Assembly: GCF_004684245.1 (NCBI RefSeq)
Contig: NZ_CP038452.1
Span: 124,001 to 188,000, forward strand
DNA: 64,000 bases
Direction: 5' to 3'
Source: Thermus caldilimi
GTDB lineage: Bacteria; Deinococcota; Deinococci; Deinococcales; Thermaceae
Below, one piece after another: positions 1-61,921 of the stretch. The translations under genes and the position numbers were made by a program. A model generated the notes under the pieces. It saw nothing but the letters and a program-made list of their open reading frames with translations, was not told the origin of the DNA and made no database searches. The first letter of the stretch is position 1, and every line of letters begins with the position of its first letter.

Positions 1-709
1 CATGCGCCCCCACTGGGGGAACCTGGCGGGAAGTCTTAAGGAGGCCCAGGCCATCCGGCGGGAGGTGGAGGAAACGGAAAGGGCCATAAGCCTGCATGGG
101 GCCAAGGTGCTAAGGGGCCAGGTCCTCACCCACTGCAACACCGGCCCCCTGGCCACAGGGGGGTACGGCACCGCCCTGGGGGCCATTGTGGAGGCCTACC
201 GCCAGGGGCGGGTTTCCCATGTCTGGGTGGATGAAACCCGGCCCTACCTGCAGGGGGCCAGGCTCACCGCCTACGAGCTCAAGAAGGCCGGGGTTCCCGC
301 TACCCTCATCACGGACAACATGGCGGGCTTCCTCATGGGAAAGGGCCTGGTGGACGCGGTGATCGTGGGGGTGGACCGCATGGCCTTAAACGGGGACTTC
401 GCCAACAAGATCGGCACCTATACCCTGGCGGTTCTCGCCCACCACCACGGGATTCCCTTCTATGCCGCCCTGCCCCTTTCCTCCGTGGACCCAAGCCTGG
501 AAAGTGGGCAGGGGATCCCTATAGAGGAACGCTCCCCCGAGGAGGTCTTGGAGCTAAGGGGGGTGCGCCTTGCCCCCTTGGGGGTAACTGCCTACCATCC
601 CGCCTTTGACATCACTCCTCATCGCTACCTTACAGGCATCATCACGGAGAAAGGGATCCTCTACCCACCCTTTGACGAAGCCTTACGGGATGCTTTGGGG
701 ATTTCTTGA
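1..709 (+). CDS. mtnA: S-methyl-5-thioribose-1-phosphate isomerase, 5' truncated by window edge
   Basis: Methionine salvage enzyme that isomerises methylthioribose-1-phosphate to methylthioribulose-1-phosphate. Only the C-terminal ~235 residues are inside the window; the family is normally about 330-350 residues, so the gene starts upstream. The visible part holds the family's active-site cysteine region ([15 protein letters not shown], Cys near residue 45 of the fragment) and the acidic active-site region ([20 protein letters not shown], Asp near residue 125). The 3' end overlaps the comF-like gene by 20 nt, which suggests co-transcription. The first in-frame ATG at base 2 is probably internal. 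Family assignment is secure. Confidence 0.93.
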
Positions 710-50301: not shown

Positions 50302-50903
50302 ATGGGGTCGGTGCTTTTGGCTTTGCTGGTGGCCTACCTCTTCGGCTCCATACCCGCCGGGGTTCTGGTGGCCAGAACCTACGGGGTGGACATCCGCAAG
50401 GTGGGTTCGGGCAACATCGGGGCCACCAATGTCCTCAGGGCCCTGGGGCCTGGGCCCGCCTTGGTGGTGGCCTTCTTTGACGTCTTTAAGGGTGGGATTG
50501 CCGTCTTGATCGCGCGGGCGGTGGGAATAGAGGGGCCCCTGCTGGGCGGGGTGGCGTTGGCGGCGGTGCTGGGCCACAACTACTCCCTGTTTTTGGGGTT
50601 CAAGGGAGGGAAGGGGGTGGCCACCAGCTTCGGCACCCTCCTCTTTCTGGACCCCATCCTGGCCCTGTGGACCTTTCCCATAGGGGTATCCGTGATGCTC
50701 CTCACCCGGTACGTGTCTGCGGGGAGCCTGACCGGGGGGTGGCGGCCACGGTTTTGGCCCTGGCCCTTTCCCGTCCCCTTTGGGAGGTGGTCACCGTGGG
50801 CCTCATGGCCCTTCTCATCTTCTGGACCCACCGGGAAAACTTAAAGCTCCTCCAGGCGGGGACGGAAAGGCGCCTGGGGGAAAAGGAGGGAGGCCGTGCT
50901 TGA
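50302..50903 (+). CDS. plsY: Glycerol-3-phosphate acyltransferase PlsY, split by a one-base frameshift
   Basis: Transfers acyl groups from acyl-phosphate to glycerol-3-phosphate, the first step of phospholipid synthesis. All three PlsY motifs are intact: [34 protein letters not shown] and [13 protein letters not shown]. The frame breaks at a G6 run (50734-50739); one more G gives [16 protein letters not shown] and about 200 residues, the usual length. TAAAAT (50289-50294) overlaps the upstream stop and ends 7 nt before the ATG, leaderless. Contrast the degraded PlsY-like domain at 34312. Confidence 0.92.
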
Positions 50904-51579
50904 CCTCCTGGTCCTTGCCCCTCATCCCGATGACGGGGAGCTGGGATGCGGGGGAACCCTGGCCCGGGCCAAGGCCGAGGGGCTCAGCACGGGGATTTTG
51001 GACCTCACCCGGGGCGAGATGGGCTCCAAGGGTACGCCGGAGGAGAGGGCCAAGGAGGTGGAGGAGGCAAGCCGTATCCTGGGTCTGGACTATAGGGGCA
51101 ACCTGGGCCTGCCGGATGGGGGCCTTGGGGATGTCCTGGAGCAACGCCTTAAGCTTGCCCAGGCCTTGAGGCAGCTTAGGCCCCGCATCGTCCTCGCTCC
51201 CCTCGAGGCCGACCGCCACCCCGACCACACCGCAGCAAGCCGCCTGGCGGTGGCGGCGGTGCATCTGGCAGGCCTCAGGAAAGCCCCCCTCGAGGGGGAG
51301 CCCCACCGGGTGGAGCGGCTTTTCTTCTACCCTGGAAACCATCCCTTTACCCCGAGCTTCCTGGTGAAGATCTCCGCCTTCATAGACCAGTGGGAGCAGG
51401 CAGTGCTGGCCTACAGGAGCCAGTTTTCCGGGGAGGGGGTGAGCGAGACCGTAGGGCCCAAGGGGGTGGAGGCCAGGAAGGCCATGCGCCGCCACTTCGG
51501 CAACTACCTGGGGGTGGACTACGCCGAGCCCTTCGTGAGCCCCTTGCCCGTCCTCTACACCCCCTGGAGCCGGGCTTAA
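50896..51579 (+). CDS. bshB1: Bacillithiol biosynthesis deacetylase BshB1-like
   Basis: 227 residues, PIG-L/LmbE fold. Zinc motif LAPHPDDGELGCGG at residue ~7 (HPDD), and the second-site DRHPDHTAAS near residue 108. FFYPGNHPFTPSFLVKIS matches the BshB1 C-terminal region. It deacetylates GlcNAc-malate in bacillithiol synthesis. Overlaps plsY by 8 nt and udg by 4 nt. Confidence 0.88.
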   Translation: MLDLLVLAPHPDDGELGCGGTLARAKAEGLSTGILDLTRGEMGSKGTPEERAKEVEEASRILGLDYRGNLGLPDGGLGDVLEQRLKLAQALRQLRPRIVLAPLEADRHPDHTAASRLAVAAVHLAGLRKAPLEGEPHRVERLFFYPGNHPFTPSFLVKISAFIDQWEQAVLAYRSQFSGEGVSETVGPKGVEARKAMRRHFGNYLGVDYAEPFVSPLPVLYTPWSRA

Positions 51580-52192
51580 AAGAGGGGCTCCTGGCTCACC
51601 GCCTTCACCTGGCGGCGTTCCTTGGGGGGAAGGGCGTCCAGGGCCCGCTTCACCTCCTGGATGTCCAGCCAGGTGAGGTGTTTGGGGCTTCCCGGGGTAC
51701 GGCTGGGATTTCGCAGGAGGTAGGCGGGGTGGAACATGGGGAAGACCCGGATCCCGTGCCACTCAAACCACTGCCCCCGCACCTTGGTGATGGAAACCTT
51801 CTCCCCCAGGAAGAACTCCGCCGCCACCGCCCCTAAGGGGACGATGATCTGGGGGGCGATGAGCTCGATCTGCTTGAGGAGCCACTTGTCCGTGCAGACC
51901 TTGGCCTCGTCGGGCAGGGGGGCGCGGTTTCCCGGGGGCGGCATTTGACGATGTTGGTGATGTACACGGATTCCCGGGGGATGCCGGCGGCCTCGAGGAT
52001 CCGGTTGAGAAGCTGCCCCGCTTTCCCTACGAAAGGGCGCCCCGTCCGGTCCTCTTCCTCGCCCGGCCCTTCCCCCACGATCATCAGCTGGGCGTCGGGG
52101 TTCCCTTCCCCGAAGACCACCTGGGTGCGGCCTTCCGCCAGGCGGCAGGCGGTGCAGGCCTTGGCCTGGGCTTGTAGCAGTTCCAGGGTCAT
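51576..52192 (-). CDS. udg: Type-4 uracil-DNA glycosylase, split by a one-base frameshift
   Basis: Iron-sulfur UDG that removes uracil from DNA. First frame: Fe-S cysteines CTACR (~13-16), active-site GEGPGEEEDRTGRPFVGKAG and NIVKCRP. Second frame: remaining Cys in AKVCTDKWLLKQ and HPAYLLRNPS. The break is at a G5 run on the plus strand (51934-51938); one more base gives KCRPPGNRAPLPDEA and 205 residues, the T. thermophilus UDGA length. Start overlaps the upstream gene by 4 nt. Confidence 0.9.
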
Positions 52193-52557
52193 TGCAAGGG
52201 TTTCCGGGCCTTCCGGGCTTCCCGCCTTGTCTTGGGGTCCAGGCCGATCATGAGGAAGAAGTTCTCCAGGGCGTTTTCCTGACCCTTGATCTCAGGGTAC
52301 TGGTCCTCCGGGGTGCCGGTGACAAAGGGCAGGGATTTGTAGAGCTCCAGGGCGTACTGCACCACGGCCTCCGGCCCCTCGGCCTCCGCCACCTCGGCCA
52401 GCTTGGCGTAGACCTCGCGCCGGGCTTCCGCATGGCGGCGGAAGACCTCCGGATTCGGCGTCTCCGGCGCCCGGAGAACGTCCTGCTTGGCGATGCGGCG
52501 GTAATGCTTCAAGCCCCGAACGATCTCCTCCGTGGTCAGCGTGATCTTGAACTCCAT
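52189..52557 (-). CDS. Conserved protein upstream of udg, unknown function
   Basis: 122 residues, soluble, mostly helical and charged (EEIVRGLKHYRRIAKQDVL, REVYAKLAEVAEAEG). AAGGAG precedes ATG 52557, and TATAAT lies at 52597-52602 (minus strand), so it leads the udg operon. No recognised domain. Confidence 0.65.
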   Translation of the reverse strand: MEFKITLTTEEIVRGLKHYRRIAKQDVLRAPETPNPEVFRRHAEARREVYAKLAEVAEAEGPEAVVQYALELYKSLPFVTGTPEDQYPEIKGQENALENFFLMIGLDPKTRREARKARKPLQ

Positions 52558-52739
52558 CCCCGCTCCTTTCCGGCCTAAGGGCCCTACCTTTGGGAGATTA
52601 TATAGCCGGAAGGAAGGGCAAAGCCAGGTAAAGGGGGACCCTTGTCAGGGCCCAGGGCCGGGCGGGTTATCGGGGGATTCTGGTGCCTCCTTGGGGACCT
52701 CGAGGGCCAGCGTAGGTTAAAGTGGCTATACTTGGGGGG

Positions 52740-53870
52740 ATGGAGGTTTTGGGGAACTATTGGCTGCGGCGCATTCTTGCCCGTATTGCTTCCGTGGTTG
52801 TTTACGAAGGCCAGGATACCCACACCGGGATGCCGGTGATGGTGCTCAAGGGGGCTCAGGGGGTACCGGTTTTGGAGGAGGGGGTACTTCCCCTTTTGGA
52901 GGAGACCCCGGAAGTCTGGGTGCTGGAGTGGCCCATCGGGGCGGTTCCCTTAAGCCAGTACCTGGGGGTGGCGGATCTGGAGCGCCTGGAGCATTGGGTA
53001 AGGGAGATGGCCCGTATTCTGGCCTCCTTGAAGGCCCGGGGGGTGTCCCATGCCCCCATTCCCGAGCTTTGCCTGGTGAAGGGCAAGCGGGTTTGGCTGG
53101 CCGGGGCAGGGCTTAAGGAGCTTTCCGGGGAGCCGGAGAAGGCTCTTGCCGCTTTGGCTCGAGCCTTGGCCGGGGAGCGCTATCCCGAGTTTCCCTTAAG
53201 AGAAACCTTGGAAAGGATTGAGGCCAGGGAGGAATCCCTGGAGGTTCTTTTCTCCGAGCCCGCCCATGGTGCACAGGAGGCCAAGGCCCTGACCCCGGAG
53301 ACCCCTGGCCAGGAGGCTGGGCCCCTCCAGGATGCCTCCTCCAAGCCCGAGGAGTCCAGGCTCCCTTCCGCCTCGCGGAAGGTGCTGAGCGTGGACCCTG
53401 TTTCCGAACCCCCGGAGGACCAGGAGGGTTCTCCGACCAAGGAAACCATGCCCCTCGAGGGCAAAACCCCAAGCCGGCCCCGGGTCGTCCGCATCGAGGA
53501 GCCCGAGGAGCCTTCTTTTGCCGTGGTGGAACCTCCGCGGCCCAGAAGGCGGACCGTGCTTTTGGGGCTTCTGGTCGCCGTGGTGCTTTTGGGTCTGGCC
53601 CTTTTGTTCCTTCGCCCTTCCCCCCCTTCCCGAGGGGGCTACGTGATGGAGTTCCGCACCGATCCTCCCACGGAGCGGGCGGAGGTGTTTCTCCTCGAGG
53701 CGCCGGAAGGTTCCAGGATGGCGCCCGGCCAGCTGCTCCTCACCGCTCCAGGCCGGGCGGAGTTCGACCAGAAGGGGGTATACCGCCTGCGCATCAGAGT
53801 GGCAGGCCGCGATCCCGTGGACTACCTCCTGGAGGTACCGGGTCCGCCCCTGGTCATCAGGGTACGCTAA
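52740..53870 (+). CDS. Kinase-derived membrane protein with degraded catalytic motifs (pseudokinase)
   Basis: 376 residues. The N-terminus reads like a Ser/Thr kinase N-lobe (LGNYWLRRILARIASVVVYEGQD, VMVLKG with Lys37 at the ATP-Lys position). At the catalytic loop HRDIKPEN is replaced by HAPIPELC (104-111) and DFG by GAG (122-124). Then a Pro/Glu-rich linker (~170-270), one transmembrane helix (~273-297) and a C-terminal beta domain (GYVMEFRTDPPTERAEVFLLE) resembling PEGA-type repeats outside the membrane. Looks like a PknB-type receptor that lost catalysis. TATACT (52727-52732) ends 7 nt before the ATG, leaderless. Confidence 0.68.
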   Translation: MEVLGNYWLRRILARIASVVVYEGQDTHTGMPVMVLKGAQGVPVLEEGVLPLLEETPEVWVLEWPIGAVPLSQYLGVADLERLEHWVREMARILASLKARGVSHAPIPELCLVKGKRVWLAGAGLKELSGEPEKALAALARALAGERYPEFPLRETLERIEAREESLEVLFSEPAHGAQEAKALTPETPGQEAGPLQDASSKPEESRLPSASRKVLSVDPVSEPPEDQEGSPTKETMPLEGKTPSRPRVVRIEEPEEPSFAVVEPPRPRRRTVLLGLLVAVVLLGLALLFLRPSPPSRGGYVMEFRTDPPTERAEVFLLEAPEGSRMAPGQLLLTAPGRAEFDQKGVYRLRIRVAGRDPVDYLLEVPGPPLVIRVR

Positions 53871-53874
53871 GGCC

Positions 53875-54474
53875 ATGACCGAGCACCCCGCCGTTTACCT
53901 GTACCGTTACTTCTTCGCCGGGGAGGAAGCCGGGGAGGGGAGGTTGGAGGTGCGCCCCCAGCCGGGAGAGGGGGTAAAGGCCACCCTCACCGCCGAGGTG
54001 AACCTGCCCCTGCCCAAGACCCGCCAGCGCTGGCAGACGGAAACGGACGCTGAGGGCTTCTCCCTATACTTCGCCGAGCGGGTGGAGGGGCGGGAGAGCC
54101 GGGTGTTCACCGTGGAGCGGCTGGAGGAGGAAGGGCTAGTGTTGGTGACCCAGGGCAAGGAAAGCCTGGCCCTGCCCTTCTTGGTGCCCTACCACGATCC
54201 TCTTTCCCTCCTCCTGGCCCTGCCCCGCCTAGCACTGGAGCCGGGGGGGGTGGCCCGCTTCCCCATGCCCGGGGGGCGGGTGTATGTGGAAAGGCTTGCA
54301 GACCTCGAGGTGAATGGGCGCAGGCGCTGGCATTACCGCTTGCGCCCGGGGCTTACCCTGGTGGAGCTGGAGGAAGGCCTTCCCGCAAGGATGGCCCAGC
54401 AGGTGCAGGACCATGTGTTTGAGGCGGTGCTCGAGGGGGTGGAGGAAGTGAAAAGGCGCCGCCGCTGGGTATAG
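53875..54474 (+). CDS. Beta-rich conserved protein, unknown function
   Basis: 199 residues, no signal peptide or membrane helix. Strand-rich: [60 protein letters not shown], and [26 protein letters not shown]. The order, ending in a product such as GLPARM, recalls DUF3108-like proteins, but this is tentative. It follows the kinase-like gene by 4 nt, probably in one operon. Its stop overlaps the hisD -10 box. Confidence 0.6.
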
Positions 54475-54481
54475 TGGAGGC

Positions 54482-55720
54482 ATGATCTACCGCGCGGAGG
54501 AGGTGAGGGAGCGCTTCGCCCGCCGGGGCCTTTCCTTTGACCCCACGGTGGAGGAGATCGTGCGGGGTATCCTGGCCGCGGTGCGGGAGGAAGGGGATGC
54601 GGCCCTAGACCGCTTCAGCCTGGACCTGGACGGCCACCCCGTGGAGGAGATTCCCAAGAAGGCCTGGCGCCAGGCCTACGAGGACCTGGACGAGGAGCTG
54701 AGGGACGCCCTGGAAACGGCCAAGGAGCGCATAGAGGCTTTCTATCGGGAAGAGGCCAAGGGGGGATTTTTGAGGGCGGACGAAAGCGGCCTCTTGGGCC
54801 AGCTGGTCCGCCCCCTTTCCCGGGTGGGGGTGTACGTCCCCGGGGGCAGCGCCCCCCTTCTTTCCAGCCTCCTCATGAGCGTGGTGCCCGCCAAGGTGGC
54901 CGGGGTGGCGGAGGTGATCGTGGCCAGTCCCCCAAGGGTCCACCCCGGGGTGCTGGCCGCCGCCTGGGTGGCGGGGGCGGACCGGCTTTTCGCCATGGGC
55001 GGGGCCCAGGCCATCGCCGCCATGGCCTACGGGACGGAGCGGGTTCCCCGGGTGGACAAGATCGTGGGGCCGGGCAACGCCTACGTGGTGGCGGCCAAGC
55101 GCCAGGTGTATGGTGCCGTGGGCATCGACGGCCTGGCGGGGCCCACGGAAACCCTTATCATCGCCGACGGTTCCGCCTCGCCCAGGCTCCTCGCTGCCGA
55201 CCTCCTGGCCCAGGCAGAGCACGGCCCCGACTCTGAGCCCTGGCTCCTTTCTCCGGAGCGGGCCCTTTTGGAGCGGGTGGAGGCGGAGCTTTCCAAGCAG
55301 CTTTCCCAGCTTCCCCGGGCGGAGATCGCCCACCGTGCCCTAGAGAAGGGAGGGTTGGTGCTGACCAAAGACCTCGAGGAGGCCCTGGAACTGGCCAACC
55401 TCTACGCTCCCGAGCACCTCTGCCTGGCCCTGGCCGACCCCTTGCCCTGGTTGGGGAAGGTGCAGAACGCCGGAGGGGTCTTCCTGGGGGAGGGGAGCCC
55501 TGAGGCCCTGGGGGACTACATCGCCGGGCCCAGCCACGTGATGCCCACCTCGGGCACCGCCCGCTTCCAGGGGGGGCTTTCGGTGCGGGATTTCTTGAAG
55601 GTGATCCCCGTGATGGGCCTGGCGGAGGAGGCGGTAAAGGGGCTGGCCCAGAAGGGGGCGCTTCTTGCCCGGGCGGAGGGCCTCGAGGCCCACGCCCGTT
55701 CCCTGGACCTTAGGCGATGA
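54482..55720 (+). CDS. hisD: Histidinol dehydrogenase
   Basis: 412 residues. [22 protein letters not shown] near residue 118, [21 protein letters not shown] (~180), and zinc/catalytic region [12 protein letters not shown] (~243) with [11 protein letters not shown] (~350). Oxidises histidinol to histidine. TATAGT (54470-54475) ends 6 nt before the ATG; the intervening GGAGGC is too close to act as a usual Shine-Dalgarno, so leaderless start is likely. No other his genes are in the window. Confidence 0.95.
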
Positions 55721-58018: not shown

Positions 58019-59173
58019 GTGCGGCGGTTACTTCTCCTCCTGTTTTTGGCCTTGTTGGTGGCGGTGGGGCTATGGGTCTACCCCTTGTTGGGCCCCGTGG
58101 TGCGGCACGGGGCCCTGCCAGCCCCCGAAGGGTTGAAGGCCCCCCTCACGGTGCTGGTCTACGGCTCCAGCCCCGAGTACTCCGGCTACCACCGAAGGGC
58201 CCCGGAGCGGTTTCGGGGCCTGGCGGACACCATCCTCCTGGTGCGCCTGGACCCGGGGGCGGGCCGGGTGGTGGTCCTCTCCATTCCCCGGGACGTCTGG
58301 GTGAACCTCCCTGGCTACGGCTGGCACAAGGTGAACGCGGCCAGCCCCTTGGGCGGCCCGGACCTCATGAAGGAGGCGGTGGCCCAGATCACCGGGGTGC
58401 AGGCGGAGCGCTACGTGGTGGTGAGCACCGAGGCCCTCCGCCGGGGGGTGGACGCTTTGGGGGGGGTTAGGGTCTGTGTGGAGAAGCCCATGCGCTACCG
58501 GGACACCGCTGCTGGGCTTTCCATCAACCTGGAGCCGGGATGCCAGGTGCTGGATGGGGAAAAGGCGGAGGAGTACCTCCGCTTCCGCAAGGACGCTTTG
58601 GGGGATATCGGGCGCATCCAGCGTCAGCAGGCCTTCCTCTATGCCCTCAAGGAACAGGTGCTTTCTCCTTCCGGCCTACTTCGCCTACCTAGGGCGGTGG
58701 CGGCGGTGGAGCCCTACGTGCAGACCGACCTCACCCGCCAGGAAACGGGGGCCATCCTGGGTTTCGCCATGAAGCGGCCCGCCCTAGTGAGCCTCCTTCT
58801 GCCAGGACGCTTTGGCGGCGGGGGTTGGAGCGTGGACGAGGGGGCTCTGCGGGAACTGGTGGGCCTCTACTTCAACGGGGAGGGCACCGCGGAGGAAGTG
58901 TCGCTTTCTGGGAAACGGGTAGCCCTGGTCTTCGGCCCCGGGCAGGAGGGCCAGGCTGAGCGGGTCAGGGAGAAGCTTCAGGCGCTGGGCCTGCGGGTGG
59001 TCCTGCACCCGGTGGAACTTTCCCCCACCCGCACCGAAGTGCTGGAGAACGGGCCGGGGGTACTGGCCCGAACGTTGGGGGAGAAGCTGGGGGTGCCCTA
59101 CCGCATCTCTGGGGAGGCGGTTTTGGGGGCTGACCTCACCCTGCGCCTTGGCGCCGAGGCTCCCTTTTTGTAG
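58019..59173 (+). CDS. LytR-CpsA-Psr (LCP) family protein with LytR_C domain
   Basis: 384 residues. One N-terminal transmembrane anchor (LLLLLFLALLVAVGLWVYP), LCP domain with LADTILLVRLDP, the Arg-rich SIPRDVWVNLPGYGWHKVNAA (~95) and DALGDIGRIQRQQAFLYAL (~195), and a C-terminal LytR_C domain (GKRVALVFGPGQEGQAERVR, ~300). LCP enzymes ligate undecaprenyl-linked glycopolymers to the cell wall. A TATGCT box (58005-58010) is 8 nt before GTG 58019. Confidence 0.88.
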   Translation: MRRLLLLLFLALLVAVGLWVYPLLGPVVRHGALPAPEGLKAPLTVLVYGSSPEYSGYHRRAPERFRGLADTILLVRLDPGAGRVVVLSIPRDVWVNLPGYGWHKVNAASPLGGPDLMKEAVAQITGVQAERYVVVSTEALRRGVDALGGVRVCVEKPMRYRDTAAGLSINLEPGCQVLDGEKAEEYLRFRKDALGDIGRIQRQQAFLYALKEQVLSPSGLLRLPRAVAAVEPYVQTDLTRQETGAILGFAMKRPALVSLLLPGRFGGGGWSVDEGALRELVGLYFNGEGTAEEVSLSGKRVALVFGPGQEGQAERVREKLQALGLRVVLHPVELSPTRTEVLENGPGVLARTLGEKLGVPYRISGEAVLGADLTLRLGAEAPFL

Positions 59174-59328: not shown

Positions 59329-60444
59329 GTGGGCGTTCTCACCCGGTATTTGGAAAGCATTATGGCTCAGGCCCGTTACGACCTGCTGGGTCCGGGGCGG
59401 TTTGTGGCGGAGCTTCCCCAACAGGGTCTAAGGGTGGAAGCGGAACACCTGGAAGCCGCCCGTAAAGCCCTGAGGGAGGCCCTCGAGGCCTGGCTCCTGG
59501 ACGCCCTGCGCTCGGGCCTCACCCCCCCGGGCCTGGAGGGGGAAGAGGACCCGGTGCGGGCCCGCTTTTTTGCCCTGGCCGGGGAGATGTGGCGGCTGGT
59601 GAAGGAGAAGCCTGCGGAGGCGCCCAAAGCTCCCCCGCCCCCGCCTGAGCCCGCCAGGATCCAGGAAGCCTCGAGGTCCAGGCGGGTTTCCTCCATAGAG
59701 GACTGGCTTAAGAGTCTGGGCATCCAGGTGGTGAAGAAGCCTCGGGAAGATGCTTTGCCCGAAGGACAAACCGATTTGCGTAAGCAAGAGGAGGAGAAGG
59801 AGAAGGTGCTCACCCGCCTGGCCCTGTTCCTGGGGGACCGCTACCCCAGCCTGGAAAAGCTCTACGAGCGCCTGAAGCAGAGCCTCTCCACCAAGCGCCA
59901 GTTTGAACTCTCCCTCTCGGAAGCCTCCCAGGAGGAGATCGCCAACTCCACCCAGTTTTGCACCCTGCTCAAGCAGTACGCCCTCCTCACCTCCTACCAC
60001 TACAAGAGCGAGGAGCGTCGCATCCGCGCCAAGGCCAGCACCGAGGGCTGGGTGCAGAACTTCCTCACCGGAGGCTGGTTGGAGCGGTACGTGGCCGAGA
60101 GGGTGCGGAAGTTCCTGCGCTCCAAGAACCTGCCCCACGAGGTGGCGGTGGGCTACCAGGTAGCGCTCCCCAATGGGGACGCTATGGAGCTGGACGTGCT
60201 GGTGCGGGTGGGGGAGCGGGTCTACTGGTTTGAGGCCAAGACGGGGGACTTCCAGGCCCACATCGCCAAGTACGCGGGGCTCAAGAAGGTGCTGGGGCTT
60301 TCCGCTCGGGAAAGCTTCCTGGTCCTTCTGGGCATGGACAAGGCCCGGGCCAAGGAGCTCTCCGCCCTCCACGGGCTCACGGTGGTAAACCAGGCCAACT
60401 TCCTCGAGGTCTTCCAGGAGGTTCTGGAGGGGAATGCTCCGTAA
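59329..60444 (+). CDS. DUF1887-like PD-(D/E)xK nuclease-domain protein
   Basis: 371 residues. Helical N-terminus, Pro-rich linker (~90-105), helical middle, and a C-terminal nuclease domain with ELDVLVRVGERVYWFEAKTG (~285-305: D then ExK) and HIAKYAGLKKVLGLSARES. This end resembles DUF1887/Card1-type nucleases that in CRISPR systems carry a CARF sensor; no CARF domain is visible here. GTG 59329 is 7 nt after TATGCT (59316-59321), leaderless; the listed upstream ATG overlaps that box. The next gene, murJ, overlaps by 11 nt. Confidence 0.72.
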   Translation: MGVLTRYLESIMAQARYDLLGPGRFVAELPQQGLRVEAEHLEAARKALREALEAWLLDALRSGLTPPGLEGEEDPVRARFFALAGEMWRLVKEKPAEAPKAPPPPPEPARIQEASRSRRVSSIEDWLKSLGIQVVKKPREDALPEGQTDLRKQEEEKEKVLTRLALFLGDRYPSLEKLYERLKQSLSTKRQFELSLSEASQEEIANSTQFCTLLKQYALLTSYHYKSEERRIRAKASTEGWVQNFLTGGWLERYVAERVRKFLRSKNLPHEVAVGYQVALPNGDAMELDVLVRVGERVYWFEAKTGDFQAHIAKYAGLKKVLGLSARESFLVLLGMDKARAKELSALHGLTVVNQANFLEVFQEVLEGNAP

Positions 60445-61921
60445 GGTTCTCCTGGTCATGGGGGGTACCCTGGCCTCGAGGGTCCTGGGCCTGGTGCGCC
60501 AGGCGGTCTTCAATGCCCTTTATCCCGATACCCTCAAGGACGCCTTCAACGTGGCCTACCGGGTGCCGAACCTCCTCCGGGAGCTTTTGGCCGAGGGAGC
60601 GGTGCAAAACGCCCTCATCCCCCTCCTGAAGAACCTGCCCGAGGAGGAGGCCCGGTCCTTTGCCCGGCGCTTTGGGGCGTTCCTCTTGGGGGTGAACTTT
60701 TTGGTCCTGGGCCTGGGGTACCTCTTGGCCCCCTGGGTGGTGAACCTGTTGGTGGCCCAGGAAAGCCACCTCCGGCAGGGGGAGGCCTTGGGGCAGGTGG
60801 TCTACCTCACCCGGCTTCTCTTGCCCTTTCTCCTGGGCATCTCCATGGCTGCCCTCTTCTCCGCTCTGCTGCAGGCAGAGGAGCGCTTTTTGCCCTACGC
60901 CCTGGGGCCCATCGCCTTCAACCTGGTGGCCATCGGCCTCATGGCCCTCTTCCCTGGAGACCCCACCTTCTTGGGGCTTTCCGTGGCCCTGGGGGGGCTG
61001 GTCCAGGCCTTGGTGCAGCTTCCCTTTCTCAGGAACTACGCCCTGGAGTGGCGCTGGCACCAGGCCATTGCCCCGGCCCTCCTGCGCATGGGGCCCTTTG
61101 CCTTCACCACCTCCCTGCGGCAGTTTCTCAACCTGGTGCTCACCCACATCCTGACCCGTTACCCCCCGGCGGCGGTCACGGGGTTCTACAACGCCGAGGT
61201 GATCTTCCAGATGGTCCTGGGGCTTTTCGCCACCTCTCCCGCCATCGCCCTTTTTCCCCGGATGAGCGCTCTGAAGGGCGAGGAGTTGGCCCGCTTCCTT
61301 GTGGGCCCCCTGAAGCGGCTTATCCTTCTTCTTTCCCTTCTCGGGGGGATGCTGGTGGCCCTGGCTCCCTTTGTGGTGATCTTGCTCTTCGGCCTCTTTG
61401 GCCCCCTTACCCCGGAGAACCGGGCGTACAGTACCCAGGTCCTCGCCGCCTTGGGGTTTGCCGTCCTGCCCTGGGGGGTGAACACCCTGCTTCTCAGGGG
61501 GCTCTATGCCCTGGGGCGGATACGAGAGGCGGTTTTCGCCAGCGCCTTGGTCTTCCTCACCAACACCCTGGGGTACTGGCTTCTCAGGGATGCCGGGCTT
61601 TTCGCCTTGAACCTGGCCACCGCTTTGGCGGGGTACCTGGGGCTTTTCCTTTACCTTCATCTCCTGAAGCGGGAGGGGGTGGGGATTCCGGAGCTACCCG
61701 GCTTCCTTCTCAAAGCCTTACTGGCAGGGCTTCCTGTGGCCTCGCTCGGGTGGGTCCTGGGGTGGGTCTTCCCCGTGGCCCAGGCGGGGGAAGCCCTCCT
61801 GCCCCTCCTTCTTGGAGGGGGGTTGGGGCTTGGGGTTTTCCTGCTTGCCGCTTGGCTTCTCGGCCTGCCCCTTAAAGCCCTCCTTGCCAGGACTCCCGCA
61901 GGCGGAAATAAAGGGGTTTAA
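60434..61921 (+). CDS. murJ: Lipid II flippase MurJ (MviN)
   Basis: 495 residues, about 14 transmembrane helices. VMGGTLASRVLGLVRQAVFNAL at the start, FNVAYRVPNLLRELLAEGAVQNALIP split over residues ~38-60, the family hallmark. Exports lipid II for peptidoglycan. ATG 60434 overlaps the nuclease-like gene by 11 nt. Its last 50 nt overlap the convergent glycosidase gene. Confidence 0.94.
   Translation: MLRKVLLVMGGTLASRVLGLVRQAVFNALYPDTLKDAFNVAYRVPNLLRELLAEGAVQNALIPLLKNLPEEEARSFARRFGAFLLGVNFLVLGLGYLLAPWVVNLLVAQESHLRQGEALGQVVYLTRLLLPFLLGISMAALFSALLQAEERFLPYALGPIAFNLVAIGLMALFPGDPTFLGLSVALGGLVQALVQLPFLRNYALEWRWHQAIAPALLRMGPFAFTTSLRQFLNLVLTHILTRYPPAAVTGFYNAEVIFQMVLGLFATSPAIALFPRMSALKGEELARFLVGPLKRLILLLSLLGGMLVALAPFVVILLFGLFGPLTPENRAYSTQVLAALGFAVLPWGVNTLLLRGLYALGRIREAVFASALVFLTNTLGYWLLRDAGLFALNLATALAGYLGLFLYLHLLKREGVGIPELPGFLLKALLAGLPVASLGWVLGWVFPVAQAGEALLPLLLGGGLGLGVFLLAAWLLGLPLKALLARTPAGGNKGV

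Follow-up and report, generated by a model that had tools for sequence, protein, structure and literature searches.

What could a membrane protein do whose N-terminal part resembles a Ser/Thr kinase and whose catalytic motifs are eroded? The question is raised by an open frame in the window, the stretch of 64,000 nucleotides of Thermus caldilimi DNA analyzed here (Table 1). The first-pass annotation, made from the letters alone, considered the product a receptor-like pseudokinase. We assessed the fold of the N-terminal part, the fate of its catalytic elements, the spread of the family and the neighboring genes.

Table 1. Features of the locus, in window coordinates
Feature	Positions	Strand	Basis or remark
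Pseudokinase-TM-beta-domain gene	52740..53870	+	open frame, 376 aa plus stop
TATACT box	52727..52732	+	7 nt 5' of ATG; likely -10 element
Cytoplasmic pseudokinase domain, residues 1-175	52740..53264	+	AF2 model, kinase fold matches, profile matches
Leu36 (VAIK-Lys column) and Lys37 (+1)	52845..52850	+	alignments to real kinases
Degenerate catalytic loop HAPIPEL, H104-L110	53049..53069	+	family alignment
GAG replacing DFG, G122-A123-G124	53103..53111	+	family alignment
Pro/Glu-rich variable linker, residues 176-268	53265..53543	+	dN/dS 0.57 vs 0.31 for flanking domains
Juxtamembrane motif PRVVRIEEPEEPSFAVVEPP, residues 247-266	53478..53537	+	conserved island within variable linker
Single TM helix, residues 272-291	53553..53612	+	hydropathy maximum 273-291; AF2 helix
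Extracytoplasmic beta sandwich, possibly transthyretin/PEGA-like, residues 301-376	53640..53867	+	AF2, VIA, profile
DUF3108-like gene (next gene)	53875..54474	+	Pfam DUF3108 E 2.8e-4, below family cut-off; 4 nt past pseudokinase stop
hisD-like gene (presumed), third in Thermus order	54482..55720	+	translation
122 aa protein gene	52189-52557	-	divergent, upstream of pseudokinase gene
Type-4 uracil-DNA glycosylase (presumed)	51576-52192	-	apparently split into overlapping frames 51833-52192 and 51576-51944
LCP-like wall gene (presumed)	58019-59173	+	downstream of pseudokinase gene, in the 4-8 kb zone with murJ
murJ	60434-61921	+	6.6 kb downstream of pseudokinase gene; separate gene

A Hanks-type kinase fold in residues 1-175

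Taken singly, the window protein has no useful match in Pfam, including Pkinase, NCBIfam or the PDB sequences, and its matches to TPR_14 (E 0.095) and 6-phosphogluconolactonase (E 0.44) were taken as chance. AlphaFold2 (AF2) prediction of residues 1-175 from an alignment of 19 sequences yielded a pLDDT of 93.8 and a pTM of 0.88; models 3-5 have a pLDDT of 61, 55 and 50, so that the fold prediction rests on two of the five models. In a Foldseek search of the PDB, the best E value is 4.4e-6 with 950 matches at E <= 0.001, and the best 50 of the matches listed are all kinases. VIA-align places the Rv3910/MviN pseudokinase of M. tuberculosis first among the matches listed (Z 16.0, rmsd 2.5 A, 175 residues), and also recovers CDK2 (Z 14.4) and PknB (Z 13.9). 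EssB/YukC is absent among the best 50 VIA matches listed, which excludes nothing. A fold other than a kinase lobe had been named in advance as the outcome that would speak against the annotation, and the comparison of the model with solved structures, PknB among them, returned a kinase fold.

Sequence profiles point the same way. Profile A1, built from a 20-row family alignment, finds Mycobacterium PknE as its best PDB sequence (E 6.5e-5), and the best 60 matches listed are all kinases. For profile-profile comparison the targets were nine real kinases, seven from genomes of group f3 (which we take to be Trueperaceae) that had given weak hits earlier and two from this genome. Against these, hhalign gave E 2.5e-10 for the whole family and 2.2e-6 for the N-terminal domain alignment of Thermaceae and f4, presumably the Marinithermus/Oceanithermus group. 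As the kinase loci were partly chosen since they had matched, this route is less independent than apparent; L053 of this genome, found by Pfam Pkinase and so unbiased, was matched at E 1.4e-4. Among the open reading frames examined, a profile of residues 1-175 has only eight matches outside the family, all with an HxD-type kinase motif and seven with DFG, and the same profile reversed has zero. A distant homologue, L048, scores 10.7 bits with Pfam Pkinase against a gathering cut-off of 31.7.

Residues 1-175 have a Hanks-type kinase fold and descend in sequence from Hanks-type kinases. The kinase-lobe reading is therefore borne out by Foldseek, VIA-align and the sequence profiles, with the domain extending to about residue 175 rather than the roughly 130 residues first proposed. 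The closest active-looking kinases found are small stand-alone Ser/Thr kinases (L070-L076, about 250 aa, with HxD and DFG) in f3 genomes; the pseudokinase domain could have originated close to them. Elsewhere in this genome, a kinase with a beta-propeller tail lies in two frames at G000:C1:2443464-2444227 on the minus strand (L054/L055).

Catalytic elements and protein layout

Motif columns were counted over 113 family rows, of which two are gapped, leaving 111, with some genomes repeated under several locus ids. Three alignments to real kinases place Leu36 in the column of the VAIK lysine and Lys37 one residue past it, so the claim that the ATP-binding lysine is kept does not hold. Across the 111 rows the column carries Tyr (40), Leu (33), Phe (32), Ile (5) or Val (1) and never Lys, and the +1 position is variable (K 46, R 38, Q 10, and others). 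HRD has become H104-A-P in the window protein, with Pro106 at the position of the Asp, a residue that survives in 16 of 110 rows. Here the annotated loss of HRD stands; the ungapped pairing of HRDIKPEN with HAPIPELC does not, since it is off by one past HAPI and relatives have a one-residue deletion. The replacement of DFG by GAG is confirmed at G122-A-G124, and the column of the DFG Asp holds Gly in all 111 rows. From these counts, inactivity characterizes the whole family and not just the window gene.

In the AF2 model, strands cover residues 7-16, 19-26, 32-37, 52-55, 59-63, 111-114 and 117-120, and helices 71-74 (short), 80-99 (helix E), 132-150 (helix F), 154-161 and 167-171 (both short), the kinase names of these elements being our own assignment. 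Model and alignment agree that helix C, the activation segment and APE are gone, as is the glycine loop. In the C-lobe (71-171), a short helix D and helix E remain, then the hairpin of the catalytic loop, and after it helix F with two more short helices. The statement that most of the C-lobe is missing was thus right for the activation segment and APE, and wrong for helices D, E and F. A stretch in the turn between beta2 and beta3, D26-x-x-T-G-x-x-V, is kept almost throughout (D 110, T 109, G 111 and V 109 of 111 rows). In PknB this turn belongs to the face of the back-to-back dimer, and PknB L33 mutants are named in titles of structures among the VIA matches; by analogy, the conserved stretch hints at a role in dimerization or docking.

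A search for homologues in related families had been suggested, and it did recover members with more kinase motifs. The distant f3 and f5 members retain more of them than the Thermus forms: L048 keeps HGDIRPERFL, EGFG, APE, DVYAWA and a DRPEA motif, and L047, L049 and L050 have HGN, EGWG and DVFAWA. Meiothermus, Calidithermus and f4 forms show HGx (or xGY) and GxG and lack the activation segment, and the Thermus forms have HAP or similar with GxG. With this graded series, from members with HGD, APE and helix F to the stripped Thermus form, the loss versus retention of kinase parts becomes testable.

The remainder of the annotated layout, in which a linker leads to one TM helix and then to an outer beta domain, is corroborated by hydropathy and AF2. 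R251, I252 and P265 of the juxtamembrane motif are conserved in at least 90% of family rows. RPRRR flanks the TM helix on its N-terminal side, and the protein is presumably oriented with its N-terminus inside and its C-terminus outside. Residues 264-376 were modeled with a pLDDT of 82.6, the outer domain as a beta sandwich. Its closest structure is the TTR-like domain of carboxypeptidase D, a weak VIA match (Z 6.9, rmsd 2.1, 66 residues), and Foldseek gave no match to the outer domain model at E <= 0.001. Among the open reading frames examined, a profile of the outer part alone matches only three proteins outside the family, all RodZ (E 7e-4 to 4e-3), and the region matched is where RodZ carries its PEGA domain. 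PEGA (PF08308) has no match in the window protein, and the homologue L050 comes to 17.1 bits against a gathering cut-off of 20.8. Going by the model and these matches, the outer domain may tentatively be called PEGA-like or TTR-like. RodZ (HTH-TM-PEGA) is matched by the profile of TM helix plus C-terminal part as well as by the C-terminal profile alone (Thermaceae and f4), but its cytoplasmic part is an HTH, whereas the Thermus protein has a kinase lobe and no RodZ_C domain. The layout had also been described as PknB-like. With PknB and other PASTA receptor kinases the protein does share the order of kinase lobe, linker, TM helix and outer beta domain; it differs in that catalytic residues are absent and PASTA has no Pfam match in the window protein at E <= 10, so the likeness is confined to the order of parts.

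Distribution, selection and transcription of the family

The family was found by phmmer in 50 of 61 relatives, and by profile A1 in 97 of 111 Deinococcota genomes at E <= 1e-15, a set that may leave out Deinococcaceae proper and a count that includes some fragments and one probably spurious match. The latter (G037/L129, a 592 aa open frame without adjacent guaA, perhaps an antisense frame) is counted among the 97 and as a miss in the guaA counts below. Named members come from Thermus scotoductus, T. tenuipuniceus, T. caliditerrae, T. arciformis, Meiothermus taiwanensis, M. hypogaeus, Calidithermus roseus and C. chliarophilus. Both domains are under purifying selection, with a median dN/dS of 0.31 for the pseudokinase domain and 0.31 for the outer domain, compared with 0.57 for the linker (24 Thermus sequences, pairs with dS < 1). 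An inner stop occurs only in G025 among the relatives, a poor assembly.

A TATACT or TATAAT box precedes the start codon at roughly constant spacing in 32 of the 36 relatives whose upstream regions were compared, including all Thermaceae and f4 rows; the four in which it was not found are the f3 and f5 rows. Its position supports the ATG at 52740 as the start, and the sequence suggests a likely promoter for a transcript with little or no leader, as is common in Thermus. The order pseudokinase, DUF3108-like, hisD-like (the last name being our reading of the translation) recurs in all eight named Thermus loci with enough flanking DNA, and the pseudokinase and DUF3108-like genes are likely co-transcribed in Thermus.

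In searches of the open-access literature on pseudokinases of Thermus and of Deinococcus-Thermus, kinase families of Deinococcus, PEGA in connection with protein kinases, MviN and the Thermus phosphoproteome, none of the titles and abstracts concerned the family, and a 2025 review never mentions Thermus, PEGA or GMP synthase in its main text. The family and its architecture are new; the kind, bacterial pseudokinases, is known. The remark that such truncated forms are rarely described needs qualification in that respect, as types with a deleted activation loop, ActPs3 and EssB/YukC, are already on record (PMC12599244, PMC9600267).

Candidate functions and neighboring genes

We regard it as probable that the gene encodes a single-pass membrane protein with a minimal, catalytically dead kinase domain and a flexible linker, serving as a nucleotide-independent scaffold or co-receptor. 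Descended from a Hanks-type kinase, it has lost the glycine loop, the VAIK lysine, helix C, the HRD and DFG aspartates and the activation segment. Stripped of these parts, among them the Asp that binds metal, the Thermus protein should, judged by sequence and model, neither bind ATP in the manner of kinases nor phosphorylate. The loss of catalytic parts together with the retention of relatives across the phylum argues for a protein-binding scaffold, probably, and not an enzyme. The outer domain might then sense the envelope or anchor the protein in it, and the pseudokinase face and juxtamembrane motif might bind a cytoplasmic partner, by analogy with MviN and EssB/YukC. Other Pkinase genes of the genome could act on or with it. 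Few bacterial pseudokinases have a known role (MviN, EssB/YukC), and the present family spans most of a phylum and occurs in thermophiles that are open to genetic work and whose proteins tend to crystallize well.

EssB/YukC of type VIIb secretion has the same plan, a pseudokinase in the cytosol joined through a single TM helix to an extracellular domain (PMC9600267). The YukC outer domain is all helical, whereas the model of the Thermus protein shows a beta domain; YukC also carries an additional helix in its ATP site, and it is incapable of ATP binding. For MviN and YukC alike, PMC12599244 and PMC9600267 report no ATP binding and action through protein partners.

Which partner, then? Outside Thermus and genus g3, 60 of 66 genomes have guaA immediately after the pseudokinase gene and on its strand (f1 others 20/21, f4 12/12, f3 26/28, f5 1/3, f2 1/2), a count that leaves out three further genomes in which the C-terminal end of the pseudokinase was not seen. 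The gap from pseudokinase stop to guaA start spans -4 to 495 nt, mostly below 100 (49 pairs read as sequence), and the two genes would be co-transcribed as an operon in most of the phylum. The conserved pairing is a tangible lead to a partner, and outside Thermus we would name GuaA first. In its strong form, the protein would be a dedicated receptor, regulator or membrane anchor that binds GMP synthase directly and couples GMP/GTP supply to the state of the envelope, the gene having been moved to a new operon in Thermus later. If so, purine synthesis would be wired to the envelope via a dead kinase. The adjacency does persist across families whose other neighbors differ. However, it may simply reflect a shared promoter, and among genomes with enough flanking DNA guaA lies beside the gene in 0 of 26 in Thermus and 0 of 1 in g3, 0 of 27 together, with the protein retained; there the next gene is the DUF3108-like one, followed in Thermus by the hisD-like gene. 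Looking back from guaA in 12 genomes chosen for a missing or weak pair, the contig ends at guaA in three; of the nine with room, G093 and G106 have the pseudokinase upstream and seven (G110, G046, G045, G052, G040, G048, G037) do not. Control of GuaA is accordingly an idea that we hold to be unlikely. Seven genomes lack a guaA match, six of them also lacking the pseudokinase at E <= 1e-15; little weight was given to this joint absence, as adjacent genes and incomplete bins make joint loss expected. In the near-complete G077 (g4, 3 contigs, 99%), neither gene was found, by joint loss or a sequence gap.

A second alternative takes MviN as its template: a tail, once phosphorylated, would bind an FHA protein and hold MurJ back in flipping lipid II, here with the pseudokinase on a chain of its own rather than fused. 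MviN is the best structural match, and murJ lies within about 8 kb of the gene in 15 of 17 Thermus genomes (G000 counted). But murJ is not near it in Thermus G002 and G021 nor in 11 non-Thermus genomes (nearest about 18 kb, in G036), and we rejected the murJ neighborhood as a phylum-wide link since it is limited to Thermus. FHA has no Pfam match in this genome at E <= 0.01, for which the FHA-dependent mechanism was set aside; a divergent FHA could escape such a search. MviN, assigned to ActPs3, has lost all three catalytic motifs, has a deleted activation loop and carries its TM segment C-terminally, and the Thermus protein likewise shows the activation-loop deletion and C-terminal TM helix by which PMC12599244 delimits ActPs3. 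The differences are that MviN is fused to MurJ while the Thermus protein is encoded by a separate gene of 376 aa, that the MviN domain has about 245 residues against 175, that the phyla differ, and that the outer domain, TTR/PEGA-like if our assignment is right, is unlike MviN. An MviN-like device appears quite improbable to us.

Residual ATP binding or another catalysis (cf. SelO, SidJ), with Lys37 substituting for the lost lysine, would find some basis in the position of Lys37 next to the VAIK site and in the Lys or Arg that 84 of 111 rows carry at +1; with no glycine loop, helix C or DFG Asp, and an aromatic or aliphatic residue in the Lys column, we consider it very unlikely. That the gene is a functionless, decaying kinase would suit the loss of all catalytic motifs and is hardly credible: the dN/dS of both domains rejects pseudogene decay, the promoter box is conserved, and purifying selection together with presence in 97 of 111 genomes argues against a one-off decay. 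Finally, a chance resemblance of motifs without a kinase fold, for which the missing Pkinase match of the window protein alone could be quoted, is refuted computationally, as Foldseek, VIA-align, hhalign and the PDB and N-terminal profiles all give kinases and reversed profiles have no match.

Upstream of the scaffold candidate, the divergent 122 aa gene and the uracil-DNA glycosylase gene recur in most Thermaceae and f4 loci. The pair did not turn up in any f3 or f5 locus scanned, and a functional link to it was rejected on that account. The 122 aa protein is 79-87% identical to its counterparts in f4 loci and in those of Thermaceae other than Thermus, and is much better conserved than its neighbor. 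The apparent split of the glycosylase frames would reflect a frameshift or an assembly indel; a second likely assembly indel lies in what we take to be a PlsY-like glycerol-3-phosphate acyltransferase gene (50302-50903, plus strand), where the frame seems to change between 50670 and 50844. A MAG titled 'uncultured Acidimicrobiales' (L092) carries a copy of the locus that resembles Meiothermus and shares its neighbors with L094, probably on a mis-binned contig.
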